From Oscillospiraceae bacterium (lineage in GTDB: Bacteria; Bacillota; Clostridia; UMGS1840), in NCBI GenBank assembly GCA_015068645.1, contig SVKD01000009.1, positions 1-64,000 on the forward strand: DNA of 64,000 nucleotides. Direction: 5' to 3'. Below, piece after piece: positions 2,054 through 28,160 of this stretch. Position 1 is the first letter of the stretch, and each line of letters begins with the position of its first letter. A model generated the notes under the pieces. That model was not told the origin of the DNA. It saw only the letters and a program-made list of their open reading frames with translations, and did no database searches. Position numbers and translations under genes: made by a program.

Positions 2054-2060
2054 ACCAGAA

Positions 2061-2094
2061 AACAAAGAGACTGACGGATGTCAGTCTCTTTGTT
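2061..2094. terminator. Perfect 15-bp hairpin, terminator-like
   Basis: AACAAAGAGACTGAC and its exact reverse complement surround a GGAT loop. The right arm contains T-rich sequence but no U-tract follows. It could stop transcripts from either side, including the operon ending at 2229 on the minus strand. Confidence 0.5.
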
Positions 2095-2228
2095 CATGAT
2101 AAAATAATTCTGCAAATGTAATTCAATAAAACAAGATATATCTTTTCATTTAATAAATTATCATCTCTTCACCTTATTTTTCATAAATATTTCTACTATA
2201 TAAAAACTGTACGGTATAGAATCATTCA

Positions 2229-2855
2229 TTATACGTTCCAAGTAACTATAATTTCAACATTTTTACCGCGAACACCCACAATAATATCGTCAGCAAGTTT
2301 TGCAACGATGGAACGTTCCAGTTCTGCAAATGCATCTTCTGCCTTCTCTTCCACTGCTTTTTTATAAGCAAACAGTGACCATGAGTATGCAAAGTCTGTT
2401 TCATAGGCAATGGTCGGATCAATATAACCAAATCCCATATTATAGCCATGATAATCATACAAATCTCCAACAGGAAGTGCTTGAAGAGCCGGATCTGAAG
2501 CTGCAAGAAGCATTGTTTCTGCAACTGCTCTGATTTTTCCCATAACACCTTTTGCCGCAGCATTTTTTTTGGACTTTGAAACAGCCAGCAACTCCTCTCT
2601 TAAGGCCAGATTCATATCCTCTGCCTGGAGTTTTACATGCAGTTCATAATGATTTCCGTCATTTTCTGTCCAGAACTCACCATCGAAGTTTTGGGTAAGT
2701 CCGGGAAGCATTCCGCAAAGTTCTTCTGTCAAAAGGCGAAGCCTTAATGCTTTTTTACCTTCAAGAGCATTGTATTTTGTTACTTTTTCTACCTCTGCAA
2801 GAACTGCCTCAAGGCAGGTTAAATCTTCATTTAATTTACAAATATTTGATTTCAA
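2229..2855 (-). CDS. HATPase-like protein, last gene of the SpoIIE/ppGpp/c-di-GMP operon
   Basis: 208 residues, TTG start preceded by AGGAGG. The segment around residues 38-60 (RLRLLTEELCGMLPGL) and the following strand with acidic Asn/Gly residues resemble the N-box region of a GHKL-type ATPase, as found in proteins encoded beside SpoIIE-type phosphatases. The C-terminal half, with a repeated Lys-Lys-Ala-rich helix, is not recognised. It starts 12 bases after the phosphatase gene and is surely co-transcribed. I infer a partner-switching kinase or anti-sigma-like binding protein acting on the STAS protein. No catalytic assignment can be proved from sequence alone. Confidence 0.6.
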   Translation of the reverse strand: MKSNICKLNEDLTCLEAVLAEVEKVTKYNALEGKKALRLRLLTEELCGMLPGLTQNFDGEFWTENDGNHYELHVKLQAEDMNLALREELLAVSKSKKNAAAKGVMGKIRAVAETMLLAASDPALQALPVGDLYDYHGYNMGFGYIDPTIAYETDFAYSWSLFAYKKAVEEKAEDAFAELERSIVAKLADDIIVGVRGKNVEIIVTWNV

Positions 2856-2867
2856 TTGATTTTCCTC

Positions 2868-5675
2868 CTAACTTAATGAAATGGCAAGAGTAAGTATGTT
2901 ATTACCATTTTCATATTCATATTCCATACTTTCCGTCATTTTCTTAACCATAAAAATTCCGAGACCGCCGATTGCTCTTTTTTCTGCAGAAAGAGTTGTA
3001 TCAGGTTCAGTTGCCTCTAGAGGGTTGTATGGAATACCATTATCAATAAACGAAATGCGGAGTTTTCCACTTTCGATACTGTAGCAAACTGTTGCCAGAG
3101 TTGCCTTACTGTAATTGACTATGTTTGCATAAACTTCATCAAACACAATATTAATTTTATTTGCAATTTTCGGTACAATTTCAATCTTTTTGGAAAGTGA
3201 GTCTGCAAATGCACCTACAACTACGTGAGAATTGCTATCCGGTATAACCGAAATACTTTCGTCACCAAGTATTGCATCAAAATCGAGAGCAAGCATGGTA
3301 ATATCGTCAAACTGCGGAGCCGTCCCCACAAATTGATCAACATCCTCTTTAATGAGTTTACAAAGCCTATTGGGTTCTGTATTTTCCAAAGAATTTACAA
3401 AATCTAAAAGTCTTTGTTCGCCGTAAAGCTCGGTGCTGTTGTTGGTTGCTTCGGTGACACCGTCTGTGTACAAATAAAGCTTATCACCCGGAGCAAGCTG
3501 CAATTCGTTTTTGCGGTAACGGATGCCTTCCATTCCTGCCAAAAGCATACCGCTTCGTGCTTTCAAATATGAAAACTCCTCACCACCTCTTTTAAAAAGT
3601 GGTGGGTTATGTCCAGCATTGGCAAACTTCATAAGTCCTGTCTTCGTATCTAAAATACCGAGCCATGCCGTGACAAACATTCCTGCATCGTTATTTTCGC
3701 AAAGCTTTTCGTTTGCAATGGTAAATATTTCGTCCGGCTCAAGTCCCTGCTCTGCCAAATCTCTGATCACTGTTTTTGCTCTCATCATAAACATCGCTGC
3801 AGGAATCCCCTTCCCGGATACATCCGCAACCAAAAAAGCAATGGTGGAATCACTAAGCATATAAAAGTCGTAAAAATCGCCGCCAACTTCCTTTGCAGTG
3901 ATCATTTCGGCATATAGCTTAAACGCATTATTTTTCGGGAAAACTGTAGGTAGCGAAGAATACTGGATCTGTTTTGCAAATTCCAGTTCTTTATCAATTC
4001 TTGCTGCCGCCTCTTTGATATAGCGTTTCAGCGTACCAACTGTCTGATTGATATCATCAGAGAGGGATGCAAATTCCTCATTGGAACGAACATTCACCGT
4101 AACATTCAGGTTTCCGCTTGTAATCTCGGCAAGATCTTTGTTTATTTTCCTTAAGTTATCAATGATAATTCTCTTGATCAGGAAATAAATCAAAACAAAT
4201 AAAGCAGCGAATATGAGGATTTCCATAAATGTATTGACATACACTGAAACCTCTTTCATAAACATAGCTTCATACTTTGGCATAGCACCGACAATATAGT
4301 ATCCTTCTACAAAACGGTATGCGCAAAGGTATTCTTTGTCGTAGACCATTGACTCAAAAATTTCGCCTTGTGTAGTAGTTTCAGGATCAAATGTGATACC
4401 GATTTTCTGAAGCCCTGCGCCTTCAAAATCGTTTCTGTATGTTACAAGATTAAAATTTTCATCACATATTGCAACAAATCCGGAATTTCCTACATGACGG
4501 TTTTTTGATACTGTTTTCACATACTTGTCTATGTCTGCCCGAAACTGGGTGCTGTCGTATCCAACCTGAATAAATCCACCCTCTGAAAGTGCGATTGCTC
4601 CATATTTTCTAAAAGTAACATCATCATAAGAGGTAGGTCTGTAATCCTGAATATACTGGGACTCTTTCCCCTTTAAAAGTGCAGTTACAAATTCATTTGA
4701 CTGCTCTCCGCTTGTCATATCATAGCCGATATACTCTTGTACATTGGAATCACAAATATATCCGTTCTCATCAATGATGTTGACTTCAATGACATTATAT
4801 TTTTCGGCAAGAGATGAAAGGGTTGCTCCCATTAAGTATTCTTCCTTGATGTTTTCGGTCTTTTTTAAAAGATTGTTATTGGATTCATCCAAGATGTCCT
4901 GATAAACATCTGATAGGCTCATTTCGATGGTTTTATTGGTTTGGACCTCACTCATGCCTGTTTGCAATACAGAAGAAAATGAGCTTGTGGCAACAAAAGC
5001 AATGATAATACAAATTAAAAGCCAGCTTTGGAAAGTCTGTGAAATCTGTTTTTGTTCTTTTTTCGAGTCAGACTTTTCTCTGCCAATTAAAGATACTACC
5101 AAAACCGCAATCCCAACAGCCAATCCATTACCGATTACCATAGGTAATGTGCATATTTTTACAAATTCAAATGCGTTGACCGCATCATCCATATTGGTAA
5201 AGAATATCATCAGCATATGAAGCACTTCTGTAACCATACCAATACCCATACCATACAGCCAGGTTGGCTTCTTATCGTCAAACATATATGTTCTTAGGAT
5301 TGCTGCAATAAAACCCGCAAGAATGGTTGATACTGAGCAGGCAATCTGCGTATATGTTCCGGCAAGCCCGAAATACACGGCAACAAAGCGATAAATACCT
5401 CCTATCAGTCCTGCTATGATGCCTGCAGGAGCACCAAAGATAAGACCTGCACAAAGAGGTGCGGCATCTCTCACATTCATGATAGTTCCGTCACCCACAT
5501 CAAACCCGCCGAAGGTGGTTGTCGCAAAAATCGCCATAAGACCGAAAAGCACCCCGATAATCAATTGCTTAACTTTATGAGACGTTTTAGAAAACGCTGT
5601 TTTTTTGTCAAGTATGTAGAGAAAAATGGCGAGAAGTGCATTATATGATGCAGACATAATTAAATGTGGTGCCAT
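2868..5675 (-). CDS. Membrane SpoIIE-type PP2C phosphatase with LytS-like 5TM, sensor, HAMP and C-terminal HATPase
   Basis: 935 residues. Residues 1-200 hold five or six membrane segments of the 5TMR-LYT type (GGIYRF motif). Residues about 245-475 form an extracytoplasmic sensor, followed by a membrane helix near 480-500 and a HAMP-like segment near 500-555. A SpoIIE-type PP2C domain occupies about 575-790 with its metal-binding signatures (EVGGDFYDF, VADVSGKG, LYTDGVTEA, FDDITML). A GHKL anti-sigma-type ATPase is fused at about 800-935 (VFDEVYANIVNYS, GGLGIFMVKK). In known partner-switching modules such phosphatases dephosphorylate STAS proteins, and the ATPase domain phosphorylates them. 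Having both in one protein, next to a STAS gene, suggests a self-contained switch. Start: ATG after AAGGAGATG. Confidence 0.92.
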   Translation of the reverse strand: MAPHLIMSASYNALLAIFLYILDKKTAFSKTSHKVKQLIIGVLFGLMAIFATTTFGGFDVGDGTIMNVRDAAPLCAGLIFGAPAGIIAGLIGGIYRFVAVYFGLAGTYTQIACSVSTILAGFIAAILRTYMFDDKKPTWLYGMGIGMVTEVLHMLMIFFTNMDDAVNAFEFVKICTLPMVIGNGLAVGIAVLVVSLIGREKSDSKKEQKQISQTFQSWLLICIIIAFVATSSFSSVLQTGMSEVQTNKTIEMSLSDVYQDILDESNNNLLKKTENIKEEYLMGATLSSLAEKYNVIEVNIIDENGYICDSNVQEYIGYDMTSGEQSNEFVTALLKGKESQYIQDYRPTSYDDVTFRKYGAIALSEGGFIQVGYDSTQFRADIDKYVKTVSKNRHVGNSGFVAICDENFNLVTYRNDFEGAGLQKIGITFDPETTTQGEIFESMVYDKEYLCAYRFVEGYYIVGAMPKYEAMFMKEVSVYVNTFMEILIFAALFVLIYFLIKRIIIDNLRKINKDLAEITSGNLNVTVNVRSNEEFASLSDDINQTVGTLKRYIKEAAARIDKELEFAKQIQYSSLPTVFPKNNAFKLYAEMITAKEVGGDFYDFYMLSDSTIAFLVADVSGKGIPAAMFMMRAKTVIRDLAEQGLEPDEIFTIANEKLCENNDAGMFVTAWLGILDTKTGLMKFANAGHNPPLFKRGGEEFSYLKARSGMLLAGMEGIRYRKNELQLAPGDKLYLYTDGVTEATNNSTELYGEQRLLDFVNSLENTEPNRLCKLIKEDVDQFVGTAPQFDDITMLALDFDAILGDESISVIPDSNSHVVVGAFADSLSKKIEIVPKIANKINIVFDEVYANIVNYSKATLATVCYSIESGKLRISFIDNGIPYNPLEATEPDTTLSAEKRAIGGLGIFMVKKMTESMEYEYENGNNILTLAISLS

Positions 5676-5708
5676 ATTTTCATCTCCTTATCAGATTTTT
5701 CTTCGCTC

Positions 5709-6005
5709 TTATTCGATGGTCAGAATATCCAAAAAACCTGTAATATCAAAAACTTCCATAATGCTGTCATTCACACCGGTAAGCTTCATACTGCCCTGTG
5801 CGTTCATTGCTTTTTGAGCCTTTAAGATTACTCGAAGTCCTGCGGATGAAACATACTCAAGATTTGCAAAATCAAAGGTAAGTTCCTTAAGCCCTGCAAG
5901 AACGCTGTCAAGTTCATTTTCAAGCTCCGGTGCTGTTTGGGTATCCAGTCGTCCGGATACGGTCAGCGTTACTGCTTCCCCATTAATTTTCTTTTCAATC
6001 GTCAT
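5709..6005 (-). CDS. STAS-domain anti-anti-sigma factor (SpoIIAA/RsbV type)
   Basis: 98 residues, a complete single STAS domain. The central segment FANLEYVSSAGLRVILKAQK carries the conserved Ser-Ser pair, one of which is normally the phosphorylation site. An AAAGGAG ribosome site precedes the ATG. It lies 33 bases before the phosphatase/ATPase gene and 25 after the HD gene in the same operon. The expected role is to bind or release an anti-sigma protein depending on phosphorylation. No sigma factor gene is in this operon, so the final target is unknown. Confidence 0.9.
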   Translation of the reverse strand: MTIEKKINGEAVTLTVSGRLDTQTAPELENELDSVLAGLKELTFDFANLEYVSSAGLRVILKAQKAMNAQGSMKLTGVNDSIMEVFDITGFLDILTIE

Positions 6006-6030
6006 TGTAATAATCTCCTTTTATATAAAT

Positions 6031-6561
6031 TTAATTTTTTTGTTTCCACGATTCTATTGGCTCGTAGAGGAATGATAATTCCGCCATGGGAGTTTCCAAG
6101 CTCTGTGCCAAATTTTTGACAGCTTTTCGGATTTCGGGTGAAAAATCCATGTACCAGTCGAGAGTTTCCAAGATATATTTCCGCTTGAACTCCTCACTTG
6201 TGATCAGTGCACATTGTAAATTGTGCAATCTGTCTGCCGCCTTAACTGCATAAGCAATGGAATTTTGCTTAATGGCACCCACATATTCTGCCATATTGTA
6301 CCCATGTTCTTTTGTCAAAAGTTTTACAGCTTCAAGAATTTCTTGATTTGCATATGTTAAAACGTCTTCTTCGGTTGCATCGGTATCCTCCAATAAATCG
6401 TGAAAGAGTGCCGCAATCTGATAATTTTCGTCAAATCCCTGACTTTTTACAATCTCTGAAACTGCTATCGGATGGGTGATATAATCATCACCGCCGATAC
6501 GCTTTTGCCCTTGATGCTTTTTTGTTGCAAATGCCAAAGCACGTTGCATGCGTTCTGTCAT
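6031..6561 (-). CDS. HD-domain hydrolase resembling the (p)ppGpp hydrolase half of RelA/SpoT
   Basis: About 176 residues. HD-superfamily metal ligands are visible: an early His in THPIAVSE, the HD pair in ALFHDLLEDTDAT, and the later Asp in KAADRLHNL, the arrangement of SpoT/Mesh1 small alarmone hydrolases. The ATG at 6561 overlaps the synthetase stop as TGATG and has AAGGAGGGG seven bases upstream, so I prefer it to the GTG at 6567. Coupling to the synthetase gene makes guanosine tetra/pentaphosphate the likely substrate (inference). Nucleotide or phosphodiester hydrolysis of another kind remains possible. Confidence 0.85.
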   Translation of the reverse strand: MTERMQRALAFATKKHQGQKRIGGDDYITHPIAVSEIVKSQGFDENYQIAALFHDLLEDTDATEEDVLTYANQEILEAVKLLTKEHGYNMAEYVGAIKQNSIAYAVKAADRLHNLQCALITSEEFKRKYILETLDWYMDFSPEIRKAVKNLAQSLETPMAELSFLYEPIESWKQKN

Positions 6562-7619
6562 CAACACCCCTCCTTTTGCTTAAGAAGGTGTTTTGCCTGT
6601 CTTTCAGCCTTCTCTTTGGTTCCCAAAGAGATTTTTAAAAACGCTGCAATGGTATCAAAATCGTAGTTTTTATTAAGTAATTCTGCACGGCACAAGAAAC
6701 GTAGTGCAACACTTGAGGAAACAATATCAAGCCCTGCCGCAGATAATGCTTTTTTAGCCAGCTTCATTGCAAGATCATAATTTTCTTGAATCATCTTCTC
6801 AATATCACCAAGCTTTGTGATGCCTAAAAACGCAAGCTGAGGAATATAGCTTTCCGGGTCAATCTCTCTGATTTCCGCACCAGCAATATCCGCAATTTCA
6901 CGAATAATACTTTGCATTTTTCGATTATTGAGAACATACTCGTTCAAAGAAATCATATTGATGGCAACATCATCTGCATCGTCGGTAATAATACGCTGCC
7001 GGATATCTTCCGTATAATCCACCATATTATCACGGGCACGCACAAACTCATCATCTGCCAGTTCCAAAAGACCTGCAAGCCGTGCAAATTGTCGGTTAAT
7101 CTCTCTGGGAACACCAAAATCGCTCTTGTAGCCAATATCATGATGAATAGCTGACCAGGCGTGTTGCAGAATGGTTCTGATTTGCACTTCAAATTTTTTG
7201 CCGCAAATAGCATCAGGCCACTTATCACCAAAAGGAAGTGAACAGATGTAATGCAGGGATAAATATCCAAAGGCATCTTCTTTGATGAGTGCTCTTTTGT
7301 CAGATGAATTTTCCCAGTCTATCACAAAATTCTCTTCAATCTTCTGCCCGATTTGGTCAATTTCATCAGAAAGGAAACAAACCACACGACAACCTAAAAT
7401 ATCGGTAATATCTTCTAAGGTGTTGTAGCCGTCCCCTTTTCTCTCCAACTTCCCTGCCAGGCTTTTTTCTTCTTTCACACGATGCTCAACAGCTAAAACA
7501 GTAAGTCCCAAATCCTTTACGATGTCGGAGAGCATGGTATGTACCGTGTCGCCTAAGGTTACAAAATCGTCCCTTTGTTTTCTGTAATCCTCTAAAATAA
7601 GTCTGCATTTTAAATTCAA
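6561..7619 (-). CDS. (p)ppGpp synthetase, RelA/SpoT nucleotidyltransferase domain protein
   Basis: 352 residues. The catalytic domain occupies about residues 40-185: the ATP-binding basic/Ser region SLAGKLERKGDGYNTLEDI, the DILGCRVVCF strand, and EVQIRTILQHAWSAIHHDI with the invariant Glu-Val-Gln-Ile-Arg-Thr. The C-terminal half is helical and carries none of the TGS or ACT domains of long Rel proteins. The hydrolase function is a separate, overlapping gene. The TTG start has GGAGGAG upstream. It is embedded in a signalling operon and transfers pyrophosphate from ATP to GTP/GDP by family homology. Confidence 0.9.
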   Translation of the reverse strand: MNLKCRLILEDYRKQRDDFVTLGDTVHTMLSDIVKDLGLTVLAVEHRVKEEKSLAGKLERKGDGYNTLEDITDILGCRVVCFLSDEIDQIGQKIEENFVIDWENSSDKRALIKEDAFGYLSLHYICSLPFGDKWPDAICGKKFEVQIRTILQHAWSAIHHDIGYKSDFGVPREINRQFARLAGLLELADDEFVRARDNMVDYTEDIRQRIITDDADDVAINMISLNEYVLNNRKMQSIIREIADIAGAEIREIDPESYIPQLAFLGITKLGDIEKMIQENYDLAMKLAKKALSAAGLDIVSSSVALRFLCRAELLNKNYDFDTIAAFLKISLGTKEKAERQAKHLLKQKEGC

Positions 7620-7631
7620 AATATCTCCTCC

Positions 7632-8588
7632 TTACATAAACCCAAACATGAGCTTAAATAAATCATATATTGCACCGCCTAAGGCTCCAATCAAAAGAAC
7701 CATAAACAGATAAATAAACATACTGAATTTGCTGATTTCGTTATGTTCCATAGTAAAATAGAAATTGTAGTGCGCCTTCATATTGGAATCCCGTTCTTCT
7801 ACCCACTGATAGGTAATTGCAGAGGAACAGTCATATCCTTCCGGCGCATAATTGCGGTTCAACTCTGCTTCAAGACGTCTGATACGGTAACAAGTGGAAT
7901 CATTCATTTCATATTCGTCGCCGATAGAAATGGTGACCAGTGCCTTTCTGATCCGCTGTTCGTGCAGGTCTTTAATTTCGTTAATTTCAGGTGGCAGAAG
8001 CCGCGCCTCATTGATTCTGATGGAATAGCCGTATTTTTCGGAAATAATAGGGCTTTGAATCAACGAATTAATCCTTTCAAACATACTACCAACATCGACT
8101 TTCGATGCAAAAACCTTATCCAAGGTTTTATGAGGTATTCTGAATATCAGGTATGCTTCGTCAGATGTGATATAATCCTTTATAAATTCAAAATTTGCAG
8201 TAATAACCGTTCCGTATGAAACCTTTTTTACCTCCATACCTTCATTTGTAAGATTGATAAGGCTTACCGTTCTGTTGTCATACCGCAATTCTGATGTGTA
8301 TTTTGTTTTTTGAGAATCCACCTTACCATTGGTATTAAAAAGGGCTCTTAATGCGGAGCTATCCGCCAGCATATACGATAAATCAACGATTTCGCAGCTT
8401 TCTATCGCAAAGGGAACAAAAATGTTGACCGTTTTTGTTTCTTTTGCTCCATATACACGCACACTGATATCAACATAACTTCTGCCTTTTGGGTTGATCC
8501 ATTCATTTAAGTAGATTGTGCTTCTGTCATCACCATCAATCCATAATGCCCAGCCATCATCAGCAAATTTTCTTTTTCTGTTACCCAC
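7632..8588 (-). CDS. Unknown protein with C-terminal membrane anchor, in the signalling operon
   Basis: 318 residues, no family recognised. The body is soluble, beta-rich and charged. One hydrophobic segment near residues 290-315 (FSMFIYLFMVLLIGALGGAI) would anchor it with the body on one side. No signal peptide. The GTG start lies 3 bases after the diguanylate cyclase stop and the gene ends 12 bases before the (p)ppGpp synthetase, so it is co-transcribed with both. A receptor or scaffold linking nucleotide signals to the membrane phosphatase is a guess from context only. Confidence 0.75.
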   Translation of the reverse strand: MGNRKRKFADDGWALWIDGDDRSTIYLNEWINPKGRSYVDISVRVYGAKETKTVNIFVPFAIESCEIVDLSYMLADSSALRALFNTNGKVDSQKTKYTSELRYDNRTVSLINLTNEGMEVKKVSYGTVITANFEFIKDYITSDEAYLIFRIPHKTLDKVFASKVDVGSMFERINSLIQSPIISEKYGYSIRINEARLLPPEINEIKDLHEQRIRKALVTISIGDEYEMNDSTCYRIRRLEAELNRNYAPEGYDCSSAITYQWVEERDSNMKAHYNFYFTMEHNEISKFSMFIYLFMVLLIGALGGAIYDLFKLMFGFM

Positions 8589-8591
8589 GCT

Positions 8592-10163
8592 TTATTTCAA
8601 CCCCTTAATTTTTCGTTTATTCTCATACATAGCATCGTCCGCTCTGTTAAATACATCCATAAAATTTGTGTCCTTTCCGAAATCATATCTTGCAAAGCCT
8701 TTTGCAATGCTTACCGGAATTGACTCTTTATCTGTATCCACCGACTTGCTAAGACACTCTTCATCGAAAATTTTAAGAAGTTCCTCTACATCATCAAGGT
8801 CTCTGTTTTGCAGAATCACTAAAAATTCATCTCCGCCGATTCTGAAAACAGGACTTCTTTTGAATATATCTGATATAACCCTTGCCGCACTCACAATAAG
8901 CTTATTACCTACATCATGACCGTATCTGTCATTTGTTTCTTTCAGATAATTAATATCAAAAACGATAACACCAAAAACGATTTCTTTGCTTTCAATTTCT
9001 TTATCAAAATCAGTAATCCACGCCCAATAGGAATTCGTGTTTCTAAGCCCGGTAAGTGAATCACGATAGGCTAAAAGATGCTGCAGTTTCTCGTGCTCCT
9101 TCAGCTGCAACGCCATATTCTCAAATGCAATGCTTAAGAGATTAATTTCATACGTATCGCTCTGTATGATTTCAACATCATACTCCTGATTGGAAAGTTT
9201 CACCGATGCATCAGTTAGTTTCTTTAAGGGATGCACAATTTTTTTAACGATAAAAATTGCGATGCAAGAAAACAACACGGCAAGCAAAAGCACAACAAGT
9301 AGTATCTTAAGAGCTATGTCATATCGTATCTGTCTGATATCATTGTAGCTTGCAGAAATGATCAGCGTCATTCCATTCCTTAATTCTTCGGATACACTGA
9401 GATATTCTTCCGGATGCTCATGAAGCTTTGCGTCTTCGGCGTGCTCTGAATTATAGATGTCTGCACCTTCAAACTCGAGATGTGCAAATCCGTTTTCATA
9501 AATTTTTATATGGTGAACCTTATCGGTCAAAACGCTATAGTCAAAGTCCATACCAACAATACCGATAAATTCGTTATCATAATAAAGAGGCACTACATAC
9601 GAAATCATCATGATATCGATGTTTTTGTTGTTGTATGGCAACATCCAGACGGGTTTTCCTGCTTCAAGCGGTTGCCAATACCAGCCCACGTGTTCAGTAT
9701 CAGATTTATCATAAAGAGATATATCAGTAGGCTCAAAACGAACAAATTCATCCGTTCTTTTCACCTTACTGTAAAAAAGTCCGAATGTGTTATGTGAAAG
9801 CTCGGGTGCAAATCTGAAATAGTACGCCATCGCACCGTCAGTATTGCTTGCTACATCAATAAACATCTCATCAGCTCGTTCTAAAATATCGGCCTGTCTT
9901 TTGGTATCCTCAATATCAGCTTTACTGTTGATAAAATCGAGCACATAGCTTTCCATAATATGTACCGACTTTTCCATATCGCCGAAAATGTCGTTGATTT
10001 GAGAAGCTTCTTTTTCACAGGTGACATTTATATAATCCTCTGTCTGGTGCTGCACAAACTGGTCGACCTCATATATACTTAATCCCCCTATGAACACTGT
10101 AATAGCCAGCATAGCAGATATAAGTGTTATTAAAATTTTAGACTGCATTGAGTGTATTTTCAT
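8592..10163 (-). CDS. Membrane diguanylate cyclase: Cache-HAMP-GGDEF
   Basis: 523 residues. A membrane helix at about 10-30, an extracytoplasmic dCache-like sensor (residues about 40-275, with VGWYWQPLEAGKPVWMLPY), a second helix near 283-305, HAMP near 305-355, and a GGDEF domain from about 360 with an intact FRIGGDEFLVIL active site. The RxxD inhibitory site normally five residues before GGDEF is absent (the local sequence is FKRS), so product inhibition through that site is not expected. It is the first gene of a seven-gene operon. A TTTGTCA direct repeat and a -10-like hexamer lie just upstream (10188-10220). Confidence 0.93.
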   Translation of the reverse strand: MKIHSMQSKILITLISAMLAITVFIGGLSIYEVDQFVQHQTEDYINVTCEKEASQINDIFGDMEKSVHIMESYVLDFINSKADIEDTKRQADILERADEMFIDVASNTDGAMAYYFRFAPELSHNTFGLFYSKVKRTDEFVRFEPTDISLYDKSDTEHVGWYWQPLEAGKPVWMLPYNNKNIDIMMISYVVPLYYDNEFIGIVGMDFDYSVLTDKVHHIKIYENGFAHLEFEGADIYNSEHAEDAKLHEHPEEYLSVSEELRNGMTLIISASYNDIRQIRYDIALKILLVVLLLAVLFSCIAIFIVKKIVHPLKKLTDASVKLSNQEYDVEIIQSDTYEINLLSIAFENMALQLKEHEKLQHLLAYRDSLTGLRNTNSYWAWITDFDKEIESKEIVFGVIVFDINYLKETNDRYGHDVGNKLIVSAARVISDIFKRSPVFRIGGDEFLVILQNRDLDDVEELLKIFDEECLSKSVDTDKESIPVSIAKGFARYDFGKDTNFMDVFNRADDAMYENKRKIKGLK

Positions 10164-10187: not shown

Positions 10188-10220
10188 GTATAAAATCAGC
10201 TATGACAAACCTATGACAAA
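10188..10220 (-). promoter_or_regulatory. Direct-repeat promoter element, copy 1 (diguanylate cyclase operon)
   Basis: On the minus strand, TTTGTCA-TAGG-TTTGTCA (heptamers at 10214-10220 and 10203-10209, 11-bp period) is followed after exactly 9 bases by TTATAC (10188-10193). The element overlaps the stop codon of the upstream oxidoreductase gene. Repeat, period and distance match copies 2 and 3. SARP-family activators are known to bind such 11-bp-period heptamers close to the -10. Confidence 0.75.
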
Positions 10221-10768
10221 TTTGAAATACGCTTTTTGGCTTCTTCCATAATAGATGTTACATCTGCGCCAAAAATGTCCAGACCTTCTGCCGCGCAAAA
10301 ACACACATCATCAATCCCATAGAAATTTTGAGCAAGTGCTTTTACATAATCAAATCCAAAATTGTTATGACTGATATATCCACCGGCGGTAGTGATATAA
10401 TACAACTTTTTTGCCTTACATTTGCCAACAGGACGTCCCTCTTCTGAATATTCAAAAGTAATTCCTGAAACCGTGATGTTTTCCAAATAAATTTTTAACA
10501 CGGAGGGAAATGATAAATCCCAAAACGGTGCAGCAATTACAATAATGTCAGCTGTCGAGAACTGTTTGGCATATTCAAATTCCTCACCGGAAAAATCATG
10601 CAGTGCTCTTTTTTCGATCCCCTTATTACAAAGAGGTAACAGGCCCTCTTTGTATAAATTAACTTCGGTTATTTCTCCATCCAATCTATTGAGCAAATGC
10701 CAAGAAAGTTCTGTTGTTCTTGACTGAGGGCGAACACAAGCATTGATCAACAAAATTTTATTTTTCAT
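10211..10768 (-). CDS. NAD(P)H-dependent flavin oxidoreductase, flavodoxin-like fold (azoreductase-like)
   Basis: 185 residues. The N-terminus KILLINACVRPQSRT has the FMN phosphate-binding loop of the flavodoxin-like quinone/azo-reductase family. IIVIAAPFWDLSFPSVLKIY and the TTAGGY segment match the FMN ring-binding loops. It probably reduces quinones or azo or nitro compounds with two-electron transfer, protecting against redox stress; the substrate is not determinable. It overlaps the upstream STAS gene by four bases (ATGA type), an unusual partner. The pair is expressed from the second copy of the direct-repeat promoter. Confidence 0.85.
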   Translation of the reverse strand: MKNKILLINACVRPQSRTTELSWHLLNRLDGEITEVNLYKEGLLPLCNKGIEKRALHDFSGEEFEYAKQFSTADIIVIAAPFWDLSFPSVLKIYLENITVSGITFEYSEEGRPVGKCKAKKLYYITTAGGYISHNNFGFDYVKALAQNFYGIDDVCFCAAEGLDIFGADVTSIMEEAKKRISNLS

Positions 10769-11073
10769 ATAGATTTCTCCGATTCTAACATTTCTAAAAG
10801 GCCCGTCATTTCGAAAACCTCATAAACCATATCGTTAACTTTTTCAATTCGCATTGTTCCCTGATTGGAATTCATTTTTTTATACGCTCCAAGCAAAACT
10901 CTGATGCCCGCCGAAGAAATGTATTCGACCCCGGACATATCAAAAATAAGTTCTTTTGTATCTTCGGACAACTCACTGATTACGGTTGCTAAATTTGGTG
11001 CAGTTGTTGTGTCCAATCTCCCCGTTATTGCAAGAGTCACAAGTTCAAAGTCTCTTTCTACATTGATTGTCAT
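10765..11073 (-). CDS. STAS-domain anti-anti-sigma factor, second copy
   Basis: About 102 residues, one STAS domain with FDMSGVEYISSAGIRVLLGA carrying the conserved Ser pair. It is clearly paralogous to the STAS gene at 5709. An ATG exists at 11079, but the Shine-Dalgarno sequence AAAGGAG sits only one base before it and seven before the ATG at 11073, so the latter is chosen. It probably competes with or feeds into the same phosphatase/ATPase switch encoded at 2868 (inference). Confidence 0.9.
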   Translation of the reverse strand: MTINVERDFELVTLAITGRLDTTTAPNLATVISELSEDTKELIFDMSGVEYISSAGIRVLLGAYKKMNSNQGTMRIEKVNDMVYEVFEMTGLLEMLESEKSI

Positions 11074-11110
11074 AAACATTCTCCTTTCAAAGAATAATTA
11101 CATACATAAA

Positions 11111-11143
11111 ATATCACATTCACTATGACAAACCTATGACAAA
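11111..11143 (-). promoter_or_regulatory. Direct-repeat promoter element, copy 2 (STAS-oxidoreductase operon)
   Basis: Minus-strand TTTGTCA heptamers at 11137-11143 and 11126-11132 with the same TAGG spacer, then 9 bases to TGATAT at 11111-11116. It lies about 40 bases before the STAS start. Confidence 0.75.
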
Positions 11144-11195
11144 TTAAAATTCGAGTAAAAAAAATACGGTCGGAATCTTCCGACCGTAAACAAAT

Positions 11196-11975
11196 TTATG
11201 AATTTCTTCCAAGCAGCAATGCGAGTGTGTCTTCAGCCCAGGAGTACTGGGTCATATACTCTCCATGAAACGGAGGCTTTCCGGTTTGTAAAAACTTGTG
11301 ATAGTCACAGTTGATTCTCGAGGGATCTATTCTGTAATGGTACCCTTCCTGGCAAAACACCTTTTCCGCCCCCACATTGGCCAGTGCTTTTTTTAAATCT
11401 CCCACAAGATGTCTTAAATAATCCATATTTTTAACATCATCTGTATTTTCGGGCCATATAACGGCACATATTTGCTTTCCCGTCATGCCTGCACCGTTTC
11501 TGTCAACAAGCACCGCAAAAAGCTCCTTTGCTTTGGTACGCTTAAAGGCAAGCGCCTCTCCATTTTTTAAAACCTCAAAGTTTCCGAAGCATTTCACATC
11601 AAGCAATGAAACATTCGGATTTTTACTCTTAATATGGTCAATTTCTTTCTGAACATCCTCCGGAGTGATTGGTTTCATCAGATATCCGCTACATCTGAGC
11701 CGAATGGCATTGAGTGCATACTCCTCATACCCCGTACAGAAAACAATTTTGCATTCCGGCTGAATTTGGGAAATCTTTTCAGCCAGGGCAAGTCCACCCA
11801 TACCACGCATATTGATATCAAGAAAAGCGATATCCGCACTATTTTGAGCAATCCACTCAAGAGCAGCTGAACAAACAGAAAAGTCGTAAACCGCTTCGAT
11901 ATCAGGCGAAGCTTTCACAATATTGGTCAGAGCATTCAGCATAGGCCTTTCATCATCCACTGTGATTGCAATCAT
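11196..11975 (-). CDS. SARP-like response regulator (receiver + winged helix)
   Basis: 259 residues. The receiver domain occupies 1-115 with the acidic DDE at 8-10, phospho-acceptor Asp in FLDINMRG (about residue 53), FCTGYEEYA and the Lys in GYLMKPI. A winged-helix/OmpR-like domain of the SARP group follows (about 125-215), then a short BTAD-like tail with FHGEYMTQYSWAE. Such regulators bind heptameric direct repeats with 11-bp period. Exactly that arrangement precedes three nearby operons, so they are its probable targets. The start overlaps the 3' end of the kinase gene by 23 bases, indicating translational coupling. Confidence 0.9.
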   Translation of the reverse strand: MIAITVDDERPMLNALTNIVKASPDIEAVYDFSVCSAALEWIAQNSADIAFLDINMRGMGGLALAEKISQIQPECKIVFCTGYEEYALNAIRLRCSGYLMKPITPEDVQKEIDHIKSKNPNVSLLDVKCFGNFEVLKNGEALAFKRTKAKELFAVLVDRNGAGMTGKQICAVIWPENTDDVKNMDYLRHLVGDLKKALANVGAEKVFCQEGYHYRIDPSRINCDYHKFLQTGKPPFHGEYMTQYSWAEDTLALLLGRNS

Positions 11976-13815
11976 TTCCTGTCCCCTCCTTTGGTATTCT
12001 TATAGTTGCCTTCGTTCCACTTCCGATTTTGCTTTCTATGGTCAGTGTACCGTTACACATCGCCTCAATTCGGCCCCGTATGTTTTTGATTCCGACATGC
12101 TTGGTTTCATCATATCCTGCATTGATATCAAAGCCCACACCGTCGTCGGTTACCTCTACCACATAAGACTCTTTGGTTTCATAAGCAGATATTGTAACAA
12201 TTCCGCCTTCTTCAAGCCCCATAAGACCGTGCTTGATAGCGTTTTCGACAAGGGGCTGAACGGAAAGTGCAGGCAGAAGAAACTCCACAGAACGAAGGTC
12301 GTATTGGATTGTCATATCAGGGAAACGAATCTGTTCAATATCGGTATAGTGCTTGACGTGATTCATTTCCTGCGAAAATGTAATCGGTTTTACATTATCC
12401 AGTTCACTGAAGTTTCCTCTTAAATACAAGCTAAAGTTACGAACCAATTTTGAAGCAGCTTCCGGTTCTGTGATACAAAGCTGTTCAATCGTTCCCAAGG
12501 TATTATAGATAAAATGAGGCTGAATCTGGCTGATCAGAAGGGATATTCGACTTTCTGCAAGCTCTGCCTTTAAAATCATTTTTTCCGTTTCAAGCTCTCT
12601 CGCTCGTATAGCTGCATTGAAACTTTGAGGAACAACCTTCAAAAGCAAGATAAGCGTTGCAACAAAGATTAAAACAAAAATACCTTCCGAAACAATGCCA
12701 CCTTGCCACAAGCCAAAGCTTGTCCCCAAACTATCCAGGATAAATGCAATCATCGGAAGCATCACGAACGCATTGAATATCGTTTTGTTTTTATCTGCTT
12801 TTGAAAAACAAAGAGCAAGAAGCACTATCATTACAAGGCAAATCGCACTTTGAAGTGCTGACCATACTGGCAAGGTATCATAAAATCTCACATGAGTAAT
12901 CGTTGGTGCCAACATACATGCACAAATGAAAAACAAATCCAAAACAGCAAGCCATATCCCAACTTTTTTTGCCTTATTTTTCAGCTGAAAAACTATAAAG
13001 CCCGTCAGCATCAGCATATAAATCATGATTGAACCAATCTGCATTCTTGTATTAAATTTAATGATTTCGCTAAAGAATATCACTCCGTGTGCTTTAAATA
13101 AGAAATAAATCCCCGAACAGAAGATAGCAATGCCAATCAACCATAGTTTTCCATTTCCTTTCATATGAATCAACATCGAGAATATAGCTGTACCCATAAT
13201 CATAAATGCAAACAAGATCAGGGCAATCCCAAAAACCCTGTGTGCACTTCCTTTATTCAACATATCTCTTTCAAAATCTGTTCCGCCATAGGTACTTAAA
13301 TGGTTCAGAAAATCATCAACTGCTCCTGAATTGCCGAATTGATGCGGATTTTTCAGTTTGATCACAATTTCATTTGCACCTTGACATTCATAGCCGATAT
13401 ACATTTCGCCACACATATCCTCACCGGCAATATCCAGCTCCGCATCAAATGGGTGAAATTCTTCTCCATCTTCGGATACTTCACCACCAATATGATTAAA
13501 ATAAAATGCAAGGATTGTGCCTTCGGGTGCATTTCCTACAATCTCTCCCGTAGTGGGAACAAATAACTGAAAATTTCCTTTCAGGGTTACATCACCTTTG
13601 TCTGCGGGAATATGTTCACCTTTGACATATGTTTGCCACTCGCCGTCTGCCACCTGATATTCCCCGACAAACTTTGCGGAAAGATACAAGGCATTCATTG
13701 CCTGATTTCCATAATCTCTTCCTGTATAAACAAAGGTGCAAAGAACAATAACCAGCAAAGATATACATATCCCAATAAAAAATTTCTTATTTAAGTTTTT
13801 TTTCATAGATTTCAT
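11953..13815 (-). CDS. LytS-type sensor histidine kinase with 7TM-DISM-like sensor
   Basis: About 620 residues from the ATG at 13815, chosen because GGAGA lies about ten bases upstream; an earlier GTG/ATG frame extends to 13866. An N-terminal membrane helix, an extracytoplasmic beta-rich domain (about 25-195), then seven or more helices (about 200-395) match the 7TMR-DISM design. A short coiled coil leads to the histidine box SQIQPHFIYNTLG (His about 428), the N box LVENAIKHGL and the G box DDGVGFD. It should phosphorylate the adjacent response regulator. The signal is unknown; in DISM receptors it is often a carbohydrate or other small extracellular ligand. Confidence 0.92.
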   Translation of the reverse strand: MKSMKKNLNKKFFIGICISLLVIVLCTFVYTGRDYGNQAMNALYLSAKFVGEYQVADGEWQTYVKGEHIPADKGDVTLKGNFQLFVPTTGEIVGNAPEGTILAFYFNHIGGEVSEDGEEFHPFDAELDIAGEDMCGEMYIGYECQGANEIVIKLKNPHQFGNSGAVDDFLNHLSTYGGTDFERDMLNKGSAHRVFGIALILFAFMIMGTAIFSMLIHMKGNGKLWLIGIAIFCSGIYFLFKAHGVIFFSEIIKFNTRMQIGSIMIYMLMLTGFIVFQLKNKAKKVGIWLAVLDLFFICACMLAPTITHVRFYDTLPVWSALQSAICLVMIVLLALCFSKADKNKTIFNAFVMLPMIAFILDSLGTSFGLWQGGIVSEGIFVLIFVATLILLLKVVPQSFNAAIRARELETEKMILKAELAESRISLLISQIQPHFIYNTLGTIEQLCITEPEAASKLVRNFSLYLRGNFSELDNVKPITFSQEMNHVKHYTDIEQIRFPDMTIQYDLRSVEFLLPALSVQPLVENAIKHGLMGLEEGGIVTISAYETKESYVVEVTDDGVGFDINAGYDETKHVGIKNIRGRIEAMCNGTLTIESKIGSGTKATIRIPKEGTGNDCNHSG

Positions 13816-14102
13816 AACAATCATTCTCCACAAGTATTTTCTGTGTTCATTGCAGAATTTGTGCAAATTTCAGATACAGGCAAGGATATTTTGTAACATC
13901 GTTCATTGACACATACAGAAAGAAAATGCTACATTGAGAGCAACCATCATTTCTTAAGGTGAAAACCGACCTGTTCTTGATCCGTGTTGAATATTTTAGG
14001 AATCTTCCGCCGAATTCCATTCCATAAAATTTTGTCGTAATTCGATAAAGCCACCTTTTGTTGATTACTCTCTGCAGATAGTCTCAATTTTAAGACTGTA
14101 TA

Positions 14103-16745: not shown

Positions 16746-19118
16746 TTATTTTTCAATGAAATACATCGCTTCTTCTTCGGCAACAAGGGTTAACATGTGA
16801 TCGTCATCAATATAAAAATTTGACAAATAGATTTGGGTTGCAGTCTCGATACCTTCGCCCTTTGTTACGTGAGCCAAAATTAAAGTCCCGTTACCTTTAT
16901 CTTTGCCTTTTACGGTAACCTTGCTAAGTCCCACAGGATAATACTCAGAGGGAACTTCTTCCGGTGGATAATCGGTGTTTTCTTCCGTCACCATCAGTTT
17001 GTCTTCAGAGTAAGCAAACACACGCCATTCGTAACCCTTTTCATATTCATATTCAAATACGTGTTCCGCTTCGTAGTTATGTCTCATATCTGTATGGAAC
17101 AGTTGCGGGGCATACGGAATTTCCACGCTAATTACACCAAGTGCATATGGTGCGATTTCTCCCTGATTGAAATAAAGCACCAAGGAATTTTTGGTAAGAT
17201 AAAACTGAACATAACCAAGATATTCTTTCACGTAATCGCATGTATAAACATCAGAAGATTCAGGAGCAATTTCTTTCAATTTCTCAACAAATAAATTTGT
17301 TACGTAGTCTGACAAAGAAGCATCAAGCATACTTTCTTCAATAACTTCTGAAACTGACATTTCCGCATCAGAGCCTACGTGGTATGTTCTTGAATCCATT
17401 ATTTTTGACGGATGAGCTCCACCTATATTTACATATTTGTGATTAATAAATGAAAGATAGCCCCAAATTCTGTAAGGTTGTTCGTAAGTAAGTTCATAAA
17501 CAAAAGGTTTAAAATCTTCGCCCATTTGTTCTTTCAGCGTAAGTGCATCCTCTTTTTTTGCTCTTGCTTCTTCTATAAACCTCTCAGCATCCCACAAATA
17601 ATCAGCATTGATGTTATCCAGGTAAGGGATGTCATTGGGATTTTTTATAACAGGATAATATGCAACTGCTTCTATTAAAACATTGCCTTCCTCATCGGTT
17701 ATGGTTTCTTCAATTTTTTTTGCAGAAACATCATAGGCATTCATCGGGGGATCAATGTGAATTGTTTTGGTGTCACCATACCAATGCACCTCACATTCAA
17801 ATGCTTCAGAGATTGCTCTTAACGGAACTAAAGTTCTGCCATCTTTAATTTTTGCAGGAACATCGAGAGCTATTTCTTTTCCATTAAAATACATTTTGTT
17901 TTCGCCGATGGTAAGTTGCAAATGATCATTCGCTCTATTTGCTGAAACAATTTGTTTTCCGTCATCAGTGGAATAATAAACTGCACAGCCCATGGTTTCA
18001 AAAATCGCTCTTAAGGGAACTAAGGTTCTGTCGTTTTCAATGACTGGCTCCACATCAAAGTTCACAATCTTGTTTTGATAACAAACATCTATTCTTTCGG
18101 CATATTTCTCGTTATATGCCGAAAGTCTTTTCGCAACATTTTCCTGAAGATTTCTGAAGAAAAACTGATAGTCGTAAAGATGATAGATACCGTCATCAAA
18201 AAGCTTACCGGGATAATCTTCCGGCTTTACGTCTGTAACCTTCAACGCTCCTCTTTCTTCGTCTATGTATGCACCTGTAAGATTAGGAATTTCTTCTTTG
18301 ATATTCCCTGAATAATCGGTAAAGCAAGCGCCCTGGTTAAGAGTCTTGTCTGCAACTTCGGATGTTGTTTTCCAATTCAGGGGATTTATGGAATATGTCT
18401 TTTCATCTTCACCGATTATTAAAGAAGATGTAATATCTTTATCCTCGCTGTTAAATGCAACAATAACACCCGTATCTGTTTCTCCTTTGGCAGGCTTAAG
18501 ATGCGGATATTCTGCCACTTCGTCTTCTGTGAGTTTCCAACCGATAGCATATGCAGCAACAAGTCGTCTTTGATATTGCGGCTCGTCAAACAAATCCTTC
18601 ATCAAGCGAATAATCAAATCTGCCCCCTGGGAAAATCCTGCAAGAATTAATGGTCTGGAAGCATCTGTTTGGTCTGCATAGAATAAAAATGCCTGTTTCA
18701 CATCCTCATAAGCTATGGAAAGATACTTTTCCTGTTCCTCCTCACTGAGACTGTAAACCGGGAAAGTGGCTTGTCTGTAATAAGGTGCATAGATTCTTGC
18801 CACATCCTCATAAATACCAAGCTCCATATTGATAGCGCCGTCAAAGCTCTGGCGATATTTTTCATCCGTTATATCAGAATTGAAATTCCCCTCTTTGCCC
18901 ATATCAACAGTCGGGCAAACAAAGAAAAGGTCTGCTTCCTTTTCCTCTCCCAGATTCCAACGCGACCAGTAAAACATATTGGAATAATCAACATATTCGT
19001 CCTCCGGTGCGGATACCACAAATATTTCCTCAGCTAAATCATCTGCCGCCAATGCCGTAAACGATGACAAACAAAGCACAACTGCAATCAATAAACTTAA
19101 AAATCTTTTGGTTTTCAT
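16746..19118 (-). CDS. Secreted multidomain protein: alpha/beta hydrolase (DUF3089-like), stalk domain, DUF4163/DUF3298
   Basis: 790 residues with a cleavable signal peptide (MKTKRFLSLLIAVVLCLSS, then ALAA). Residues about 30-330 form an alpha/beta hydrolase, with nucleophile Ser in LILAGFSQGADL (about residue 159). Two 'copper amine oxidase N-terminal-like' stalk repeats follow at about 350-460 (each with RTLVPLRAI), which are structural and do not imply oxidase activity. Residues about 460-690 resemble the DUF4163-DUF3298 pair of RsiV/PdaC-type surface proteins (INHKYVNIGGAHP). Likely an esterase, or a surface sensor/hydrolase, in the wall. First gene of the surface operon, with direct-repeat promoter copy 3 about 130 bases upstream. 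Confidence 0.85.
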   Translation of the reverse strand: MKTKRFLSLLIAVVLCLSSFTALAADDLAEEIFVVSAPEDEYVDYSNMFYWSRWNLGEEKEADLFFVCPTVDMGKEGNFNSDITDEKYRQSFDGAINMELGIYEDVARIYAPYYRQATFPVYSLSEEEQEKYLSIAYEDVKQAFLFYADQTDASRPLILAGFSQGADLIIRLMKDLFDEPQYQRRLVAAYAIGWKLTEDEVAEYPHLKPAKGETDTGVIVAFNSEDKDITSSLIIGEDEKTYSINPLNWKTTSEVADKTLNQGACFTDYSGNIKEEIPNLTGAYIDEERGALKVTDVKPEDYPGKLFDDGIYHLYDYQFFFRNLQENVAKRLSAYNEKYAERIDVCYQNKIVNFDVEPVIENDRTLVPLRAIFETMGCAVYYSTDDGKQIVSANRANDHLQLTIGENKMYFNGKEIALDVPAKIKDGRTLVPLRAISEAFECEVHWYGDTKTIHIDPPMNAYDVSAKKIEETITDEEGNVLIEAVAYYPVIKNPNDIPYLDNINADYLWDAERFIEEARAKKEDALTLKEQMGEDFKPFVYELTYEQPYRIWGYLSFINHKYVNIGGAHPSKIMDSRTYHVGSDAEMSVSEVIEESMLDASLSDYVTNLFVEKLKEIAPESSDVYTCDYVKEYLGYVQFYLTKNSLVLYFNQGEIAPYALGVISVEIPYAPQLFHTDMRHNYEAEHVFEYEYEKGYEWRVFAYSEDKLMVTEENTDYPPEEVPSEYYPVGLSKVTVKGKDKGNGTLILAHVTKGEGIETATQIYLSNFYIDDDHMLTLVAEEEAMYFIEK

Positions 19119-19244: not shown

Positions 19245-19277
19245 ATATCAAATTTGATATGACAAACCTATGACAAA
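19245..19277 (-). promoter_or_regulatory. Direct-repeat promoter element, copy 3 (surface-protein operon)
   Basis: Minus-strand TTTGTCA heptamers at 19271-19277 and 19260-19266 with the TAGG spacer, then 9 bases to TGATAT at 19245-19250, identical in layout to copies 1 and 2. A short palindrome (ATATCAAATTTGATAT) spans the space to the -10. The 5' leader to the ATG would be about 115 bases. Confidence 0.75.
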
Positions 19278-19300: not shown

Positions 19301-19369
19301 AATTGTCGTAATTCCTTTAGTTACAAAGAATTACGACAATTTCCTGAAATTACCGATTTGGGTGATATG
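19301..19369 (+). repeat. Hairpin-tail repeat, copy D (partial)
   Basis: Inverted arms AATTGTCGTAATTC (19301-19314) and its exact complement (19328-19341) are followed by TTCCTGAAATTACCGATTTG and GGTGATATGTTA, similar to the start of the tail in copies A-C. The tail stops at the last codon of the AhpF-like gene. The hairpin may also terminate that minus-strand operon. Confidence 0.5.
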
Positions 19370-27389: not shown

Positions 27390-28160
27390 TCAATTGATAT
27401 ATTTTCGCATCGAAATCAAGGCATTTTTCTCCAAACGGGAAACCTGCGCCTGAGAGATGTGAATTTCTTCGGCAATCTCGGTTTGTGTTTTGTCTTCGAA
27501 AAAACGCATGGATAAAATCTTGCGTTCTTTTTCGGACAGTTTGCTCATTGCCTGAGAAACACAAATACCCCCTAACCACTTTTCTTCCCGATTTTTGGTG
27601 TCGGATAACTGGTCCATCACCAAAATCACATCACCACCGTCGTTATAAATTGGTTCGTACAAGGAGACCGGATCACAGATAGCATCCAAAGCTGTAGAAA
27701 CCTCTTTTGGGGTAACACCGATTTCTTTGGCAATTTCATAAGGTGTTGGTTCGTGTCCTAAAGAAACGGTAAGTTTTTCTTTGGCAGATAAAGCCCGATA
27801 AGCAATGTCTTTTAAGGAACGGCTTACCTTGACGGCACCGGCATCCCGTAAATAGCGTTTAATCTCCCCCAAAATCATAGGGACTGCATAGGTGGAAAAA
27901 CGCACCTCGTGCTTTAAATCAAAGTTATCAATAGCCTTCATCAGTCCCACACAGCCGATTTGAAACAAATCGTCCGGATTTTCTCCACGGTTGGAAAATT
28001 TCTTAATGACACTAAGCACAAGCCGCAGATTCCCATTGATAAATTCTTCTCTGGCTTTTTGATCTCCTTGAGCAATGCGCTGAAGTAAGACCGTTTTTTT
28101 ATCCTGATTGAGTCGGGGCAAATCCTGGGTGTTCACACCGCAGATAACCACTTTATTCAT
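27390..28160 (-). CDS. sigG: RNA polymerase sigma-G factor, late forespore
   Basis: 256 residues. The N-terminus NKVVICGVNTQDLPRL is diagnostic of SigG, distinguishing it from SigF. Region 2 includes NLRLVLSVIKKFSNRGENPDDLFQIG and FSTYAVPMILGEIKR. Region 4 ends with a helix-turn-helix, TQTEIAEEIHISQAQVSRLE. It directs forespore transcription after engulfment. A sigma-F/G-like promoter lies upstream at 28195-28226, consistent with autoregulation. The ribosome site GACGGAGG precedes the ATG. Confidence 0.96.
   Translation of the reverse strand: MNKVVICGVNTQDLPRLNQDKKTVLLQRIAQGDQKAREEFINGNLRLVLSVIKKFSNRGENPDDLFQIGCVGLMKAIDNFDLKHEVRFSTYAVPMILGEIKRYLRDAGAVKVSRSLKDIAYRALSAKEKLTVSLGHEPTPYEIAKEIGVTPKEVSTALDAICDPVSLYEPIYNDGGDVILVMDQLSDTKNREEKWLGGICVSQAMSKLSEKERKILSMRFFEDKTQTEIAEEIHISQAQVSRLEKNALISMRKYIN

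Follow-up and report, generated by a model that had tools for sequence, protein, structure and literature searches.

The first 64,000 nucleotides of contig SVKD01000009.1 from an Oscillospiraceae gut bacterium (GenBank assembly GCA_015068645.1; this whole stretch is called the window below) contain a run of genes in which a diguanylate cyclase, two predicted alarmone enzymes and the parts of a SpoIIE/STAS partner switch stand together. What would such a switch control, and do both nucleotide messengers belong to it? Our best reading, drawn by analogy, is a partner switch like those of the Sia, Hsb and Bgr systems whose enzyme target would be the (p)ppGpp synthetase, to which the STAS protein would bind.

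Organization of the operon

The seven minus-strand open reading frames at positions 2229-10163 are tightly packed, separated by 3 to 33 bases or overlapping slightly, as an earlier note on this DNA had described (Table 1). From the GGDEF gene to the gene for the 208-aa protein, the junctions measure 3 bases, 12 bases, an overlap of 7 bases, 25 bases, 33 bases and 12 bases. The overlap between the synthetase and HD genes shrinks to 1 base if the HD gene starts at an ATG; judging from the sequence, its start is probably the ATG at 6561, which overlaps the synthetase stop codon. Five of the seven genes carry Pfam domains above the gathering score (SpoIIE, 181 bits; STAS, 59 bits; HATPase_c_2, 48 bits), which confirmed the domain assignments of the note, and no Pfam family was found above that score for the anchored protein or the 208-aa protein. 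A phosphatase, a HATPase-type kinase domain and a STAS protein are therefore encoded in one operon, and a second HATPase-fold protein is also present. The proposal of a single transcript appears likely, with a promoter-like site ahead and a strong terminator-like hairpin behind the genes; on the operon strand, a scan of 2868-10163 listed no hairpin at junctions between genes and a single weak one at 3070, inside the SpoIIE gene. No RNA family (Rfam) was found in window positions 1-30000. Short similar stretches at 1800-2060 and 19340-19400 lie beside terminator-like hairpins and are perhaps a small repeat element.

Table 1. Features of the operon and its surroundings, in window positions; enzyme activities are predicted
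Feature	Position	Strand	Basis
Diguanylate cyclase (Cache-like sensor, HAMP, GGDEF)	8592..10163	-	Pfam
Anchored protein, conserved, with C-terminal hydrophobic (tail-anchor-like) segment	7632..8588	-	ORF, homologs
Small alarmone synthetase, RelQ-like domain plus ~150-aa C-terminal domain	6561..7619	-	Pfam RelA_SpoT, model
SpoT-type HD_4 alarmone hydrolase	6031..6567	-	Pfam
STAS protein with invariant Ser-Ser	5709..6005	-	Pfam, alignment
Membrane SpoIIE-type phosphatase (5TM-5TMR_LYT, weak HAMP, SpoIIE, C-terminal RsbW-type HATPase_c_2 kinase domain)	2868..5675	-	Pfam
SpoIIAB/RsbW-fold protein, 208 aa, family "HATPlike", possibly pseudokinase	2229..2855	-	model, Foldseek, 11-row alignment
Candidate operon promoter site: direct repeat TTTGTCATAGG-TTTGTCATAG, 11-bp period, then -10-like hexamer	10200..10220	-	
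Flavodoxin-like protein	10211..10768	-	Pfam
Second STAS protein (STAS2)	10765..11079	-	Pfam
Second site copy, ahead of STAS2	11123..11143	-	
Response regulator, receiver plus putative SARP/winged-helix-like C terminus	11196..11975	-	
Sensor histidine kinase (His_kinase, HATPase_c)	11953..13866	-	Pfam
Strong terminator-like hairpin behind operon	2060..2095	-	
Strong terminator-like hairpin between response regulator and STAS2	11165..11188	-	
Third site copy, ahead of secreted DUF3089/Cu_amine_oxidN1/DUF3298 protein (16746-19118)	19257..19277	-	

The Ser-Ser pair of the STAS protein was invariant in 16 of 16 sequences. The 208-aa protein had been labeled HATPase-like, which is right for its fold: an AF2 model of medium confidence (pLDDT 62, from 11 homologs) gave SpoIIAB, UsfX and RsbW as top Foldseek matches (prob 1.00; the lowest E was 7.7e-3), and SiaB ranked 23rd. 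By our reading of alignment A2, the protein lacks the ATP-binding Asn of the N-box and the DxGxG motif, and it may therefore be a pseudokinase. Profile searches of the PDB returned a single chance-level match (E 0.34) for the HATPlike family and nothing for the anchored-protein family. The anchored protein and its 12 homologs (alignment A3) form a rare family whose N-terminal motif is strongly conserved and whose C terminus carries a hydrophobic anchor. It occurred in 4 of the 391 genomes of a class draw, and in all 4 its gene lies beside SpoIIE, STAS or HD genes or an operon remnant.

Conservation of the alarmone and partner-switch genes

Synthetase relatives were taken from a scan of an 84,980-species collection, and the loci of the best 80 of 557 were analyzed; because these were ranked by likeness to the window family, the sample is biased. 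L053 was counted among them, although its synthetase is split into two ORFs. Partner-switch genes were called by profiles grown from the window proteins. Pfam was run on samples, and all 10 of the STAS and HATPase genes sampled from Spirochaetota and Bacteroidota loci were confirmed. On the same strand and in one run with the synthetase, HD genes were found at 30, STAS genes at 32 and SpoIIE/HATPase genes at 27 of the best 80 loci; HATPlike genes occurred at 8, anchored-protein genes at 9 and GGDEF genes at 4. Any partner-switch gene was present in the run at 37 of the best 80, STAS together with SpoIIE/HATPase at 23 (in four phyla), and HD together with both at 17. Within 1.5 kb of the synthetase, the counts among the best 80 were 24 for STAS, 21 for SpoIIE/HATPase and 30 for HD, and at 30 RelQ control loci from the same class each gene class tested gave 0/30 at this distance. 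The joint conservation of alarmone enzymes and a partner switch is thus recurrent (37/80 of the best 80 of 557, versus 0/30 for the RelQ controls). In contrast, the combination of two messengers, central to the note, did not hold as a conserved unit, with GGDEF in the run at only 4 of these 80 loci. Of the expected synteny of all seven genes, the alarmone/switch subset recurs, whereas the full order was found in one relative among the best 80 (L032). The order of the genes is shuffled among relatives while the set is kept, and overlapping genes occur at such loci in several phyla.

Reduced sets were also found: synthetase and STAS in L067 and L101, these two with an RsbW-like gene in L063, with HATPase_c_2 in L024, and with phosphatase and HATPase in L068. 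A tree of 85 rows requires 13 changes of the switch-linked label, at least 10 of them forced by well-supported branches, and among the linked members are Bacillota, Bacteroidota and Spirochaetota as well as one bin of Actinomycetota. Sequences above 400 aa were trimmed to their last 370 residues for this tree, which left out L057 (an apparent duplicate of L022), L027 and L053 (too short), L029 and L030. The records of T. porcinum ATCC BAA-908 and Treponema sp. JC4 are strain-named and bear no bin mark; therefore mis-binning is an unlikely source of the linkage there.

Linkage is a property of part of the synthetase family. The family was present in 10 of the 391 genomes of the class draw, 3 of them switch-linked, and in 10 of the 398 genomes of an independent phylum draw, where switch genes adjoin the synthetase in the window's genome and in G118 and none do so in the other 8 of 8, which are distant members. 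No partner-switch gene was found in the run at 43 of the best 80 loci, and a 27-row, mostly Lachnospiraceae clade contains 2 switch-linked members.

These data bear on whether the switch acts on the synthetase at all. It could target something unlinked, a sigma factor or another protein, with the alarmone genes as a co-expressed second arm of one stress response. Indeed, the genome encodes seven sigma-70-region-2 proteins, one at window 27390-28160 outside the operon, and G057 and G110 keep switch genes with HD_4 but no synthetase. However, with these seven sigma proteins as queries, none of the 4879 ORFs of the loci matched at E 1e-6 (L029 holds a weak match, E 1.8e-5), and therefore no link to the customary output of such a switch was found at these loci. 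Synthetase-STAS pairs that stand without other switch genes, and a gene set kept despite its shuffled order, also argue against an unlinked target, which we consider unlikely but worth keeping in view.

Signaling genes might also merely cluster in these gut genomes, so that the operon would be an accident of assembly without a functional circuit. The poor conservation of GGDEF and of the exact seven-gene order is consistent with this, as is the distribution of response regulators at the best 80 of 557 loci, of which 14 lay within 3 kb of the synthetase and 21 farther away; GGDEF was likewise not enriched (7 near, 5 farther). In contrast, near and far counts at the same loci were 37 and 3 for HD, 37 and 11 for STAS, and 33 and 8 for SpoIIE/HATPase, mostly on the same strand, a strong enrichment whose p-values ignore the relatedness of the loci. 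With the eight nearest loci removed (72 left), the counts were 28 and 3 for HD, 22 and 10 for STAS, 26 and 6 for SpoIIE/HATPase, 6 and 4 for GGDEF, and 13 and 18 for regulators. The empty RelQ controls and the overlapping genes in several phyla also speak against an accident, which appears improbable; the operon is more than chance because the same gene set recurs elsewhere.

Variants of the hydrolase and neighboring genes were seen among these loci. In L022 (154-1759) the synthetase gene is followed directly by a NUDIX hydrolase gene without HD, a possible replacement alarmone-degrading partner. Fusions of STAS with an APH-type phosphotransferase lie next to HD_4, and direct HD_4-APH fusions occur in Treponema and Bacteroidales (L020:3820-5563, L021:10855-12632, L036:8243-9984, L055:7924-9399, L102:11088-12515); the APH part may be a second STAS-linked, kinase-like partner. 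Three loci carry an HD-amidohydrolase fusion (L039:11074-12900, L044:9896-11779, L051:11064-12917), and the related operon of G057 has a free amidohydrolase (L020:9698-10993), so that the alarmone HD perhaps stands beside a nucleobase-deaminating step. Adjacent to the synthetase operon but on the opposite strand, L031 (1666-9695) encodes STAS and SpoIIE-like proteins, a dicarboxylate symporter and a large NRPS-like protein with condensation, AMP-binding, carrier and reductase domains.

The synthetase and its C-terminal domain

The synthetase was modeled from 63 homologs (pLDDT 91), and its residues 7-202 superimposed on B. subtilis RelQ (Z 19.4, rmsd 2.8, 184 aligned). In alignment A4, whose 63 family members were picked by length and to thin near-copies, 14 of 14 checked positions of the active-site region were identical in 63 of 63 rows. 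With RelQ and RelP (B. subtilis YjbM and YwaC) the protein shares the catalytic fold and active-site residues, but RelQ is shorter, at about 210 aa, and lacks the additional C-terminal domain, and its control loci lack switch genes. The score against the RelQ equivalog NF053588 was 52.6 bits, below the curated cut-off of 320. For the C-terminal 150 residues, no consistent Pfam family was found among the 63 members; two weak TPR-type matches appeared in one member each (E 0.07-0.08). The modeled domain consists of helices with short strands. Full-length Foldseek/VIA lists gave no separate match for it, but they were filled by the catalytic domain and are therefore silent on its fold. Solitary synthetases also keep this domain, which is therefore not specific to the switch-linked members. 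Two loci, L082 and L107, have long "synthetase" ORFs, which were not taken for fusions because they look like over-extensions by the ORF caller into upstream sequence. Because the genome also encodes a long Rel and a RelQ, the operon synthetase is, from its sequence, an accessory alarmone enzyme.

A toxin-antitoxin or phage-defence pair of the toxSAS type, with the switch genes as chance neighbors or as a control of its release, is highly improbable: the split synthetase and hydrolase with overlapping frames and a weak PADLOC match of the synthetase to PDC-S33 (59 bits, the sole PADLOC match) would fit it, but HD lies in the run at only 30 of the best 80 of 557 loci, so that most synthetases there lack a hydrolase partner (which leaves room for antitoxins of other kinds), and the profile search of structures placed RelQ/RelP first (E 3e-23; about 1e-23 to 1e-19), ahead of CapRel (4e-8) and FaRel2 (0.003).

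A shared candidate promoter site and the adjacent two-component system

The direct repeat ahead of the operon is perfect and has 4 copies in the 1.76-Mb genome at up to 3 mismatches, compared with 0 for the reversed control, and a 20-base form of the site is exact in all four. The fourth copy lies on contig 7 ahead of genes that we named GtrA-like and acetyltransferase-like by inspection. Eleven sites were compared, from the window's genome, G007, G110, L031 and L032: all 11 have a hexamer beginning with TA 10 bases past the repeat, and in 10 of the 11 it reads TANNNT. In L032, both the long operon and the gene for the histidine kinase have sites ahead of them; in G110, sites stand before the genes for a homolog of STAS2, for a related surface protein and for a further secreted protein. 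A search of 840 kb from other loci found no site at up to 2 mismatches. SARP-type regulators recognize direct repeats that are spaced by one helical turn and lie at a constant distance from the -10 element, and the 11-bp period and fixed spacing to the -10-like hexamer correspond to this pattern. In Pfam the window regulator matched a receiver domain alone; its homolog in L051 matched Trans_reg_C at 23.9 bits, below the cut-off of 26.2.

A search of 11 genomes found orthologs of the regulator in three, G000, G057 and G110. G057 has only a degenerate site with 3 mismatches, and G007 has a site and no regulator ortholog was found there. At L019 (G007:C5, 3086-7357), this congener retains the site and the secreted protein (790 aa), together with a GGDEF fragment of 228 aa and the anchored-protein gene; no synthetase or regulator ortholog was found, and the locus is apparently the remnant of a decayed operon. 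The adjacent two-component system probably drives the operon through the shared site, to which its regulator would bind. Such control, proposed in the note, is well supported by sequence because the site recurs before the operon, STAS2 and surface-protein genes, and in relatives. The co-regulated surface-protein genes also lend some support to the "envelope" half of the proposed stress or envelope circuit.

Comparison with known systems

The SiaABCD system of Pseudomonas aeruginosa has a diguanylate cyclase as its enzyme and a DUF1987 protein as SiaC, whereas in the window operon the conserved enzyme is a predicted (p)ppGpp synthetase with a hydrolase, and the STAS protein is canonical. The window phosphatase scored 76 bits against the NCBIfam SiaA model (cut-off 700) and is not a SiaA equivalog. 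The two systems are alike in that one operon combines a phosphatase of the SpoIIE type with a STAS-like protein, a kinase of the HATPase fold and a nucleotide-messenger enzyme, as PMC8457831 describes in part. According to the same text, SiaC binds and activates the cyclase SiaD, and phosphorylation by SiaB blocks this interaction; in HsbA-HsbD of P. aeruginosa and BgrV-BgrR of Sinorhizobium meliloti, the phosphorylation state of a STAS protein likewise controls a diguanylate cyclase (PMC8457831). The view that a nucleotide messenger and a partner switch have never been described together is thus not supported, since all three systems unite them for c-di-GMP. However, HsbA-HsbD and BgrV-BgrR involve c-di-GMP only, and the part of PMC8457831 available names no alarmone enzymes with them.

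Among alarmone enzymes, DsRel (SAS-TPR), Tde-SAS of Treponema denticola, has a C-terminal regulatory domain that acts as a brake, with Tde-SAH as a separate hydrolase (PMC10434055). The window proteins resemble DsRel in pairing a synthetase that has a C-terminal domain with a hydrolase as a separate protein, but DsRel has 410 aa and ends in four TPRs, according to that text, compared with 352 aa for the window synthetase; SpoIIE, STAS and operon were looked for in the available text of PMC10434055, and none was found. RsbU/V/W-like parts are common to the window set and the Rsb/SpoIIA sigma switches, but the window set has no linked sigma factor. No alarmone counterpart of the c-di-GMP partner switches was found in the open-licence literature at the level of titles and abstract beginnings. 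Partner switches for c-di-GMP are thus known, and what would be new, by this comparison, is an alarmone synthetase as the messenger enzyme of such a switch.

A putative mechanism

Returning to a partner switch that acts on the synthetase, we provide a putative mechanism. The membrane phosphatase-kinase would sense an outside or membrane signal and set the phosphorylation state of the STAS protein. One STAS state would bind either the HD partner or the synthetase, the latter probably by way of its additional C-terminal domain. Net (p)ppGpp output would be set by this binding, much as SiaC governs the cyclase SiaD. The 208-aa pseudokinase-like protein may compete for STAS, and the diguanylate cyclase would be an addition to the transcript in the window lineage. 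We infer the action of kinase and phosphatase on STAS, the STAS-synthetase binding and its direction; the gating of alarmone synthesis or hydrolysis by STAS is proposed because of the SiaC-SiaD analogy, the lack of a linked sigma factor, the kept serine and the synthetase-STAS pairs.

We consider the chances evenly balanced that the operon encodes an accessory module for alarmones, with a partner switch as its gate and the adjacent two-component system turning it on. A more specific version is tentative, and we lean somewhat against it: a Ser-phosphorylated STAS protein would directly gate the (p)ppGpp synthetase through its C-terminal domain, a membrane sensor-phosphatase rather than a starved ribosome would set the alarmone level, and in the window lineage the same two-component regulon would raise c-di-GMP and remodel the cell surface.

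The control of stand-alone alarmone synthetases is largely open, and a phospho-switch physically tied to one would link (p)ppGpp to outside signals. If true, partner switches of the cyclase type would reach a second class of messenger. In Spirochaetota and Bacteroidota bins, the reduced synthetase-STAS versions make this idea directly testable in small constructs. The recurring alarmone/switch set suggests a so far undescribed on/off control of alarmone production by an outside signal.
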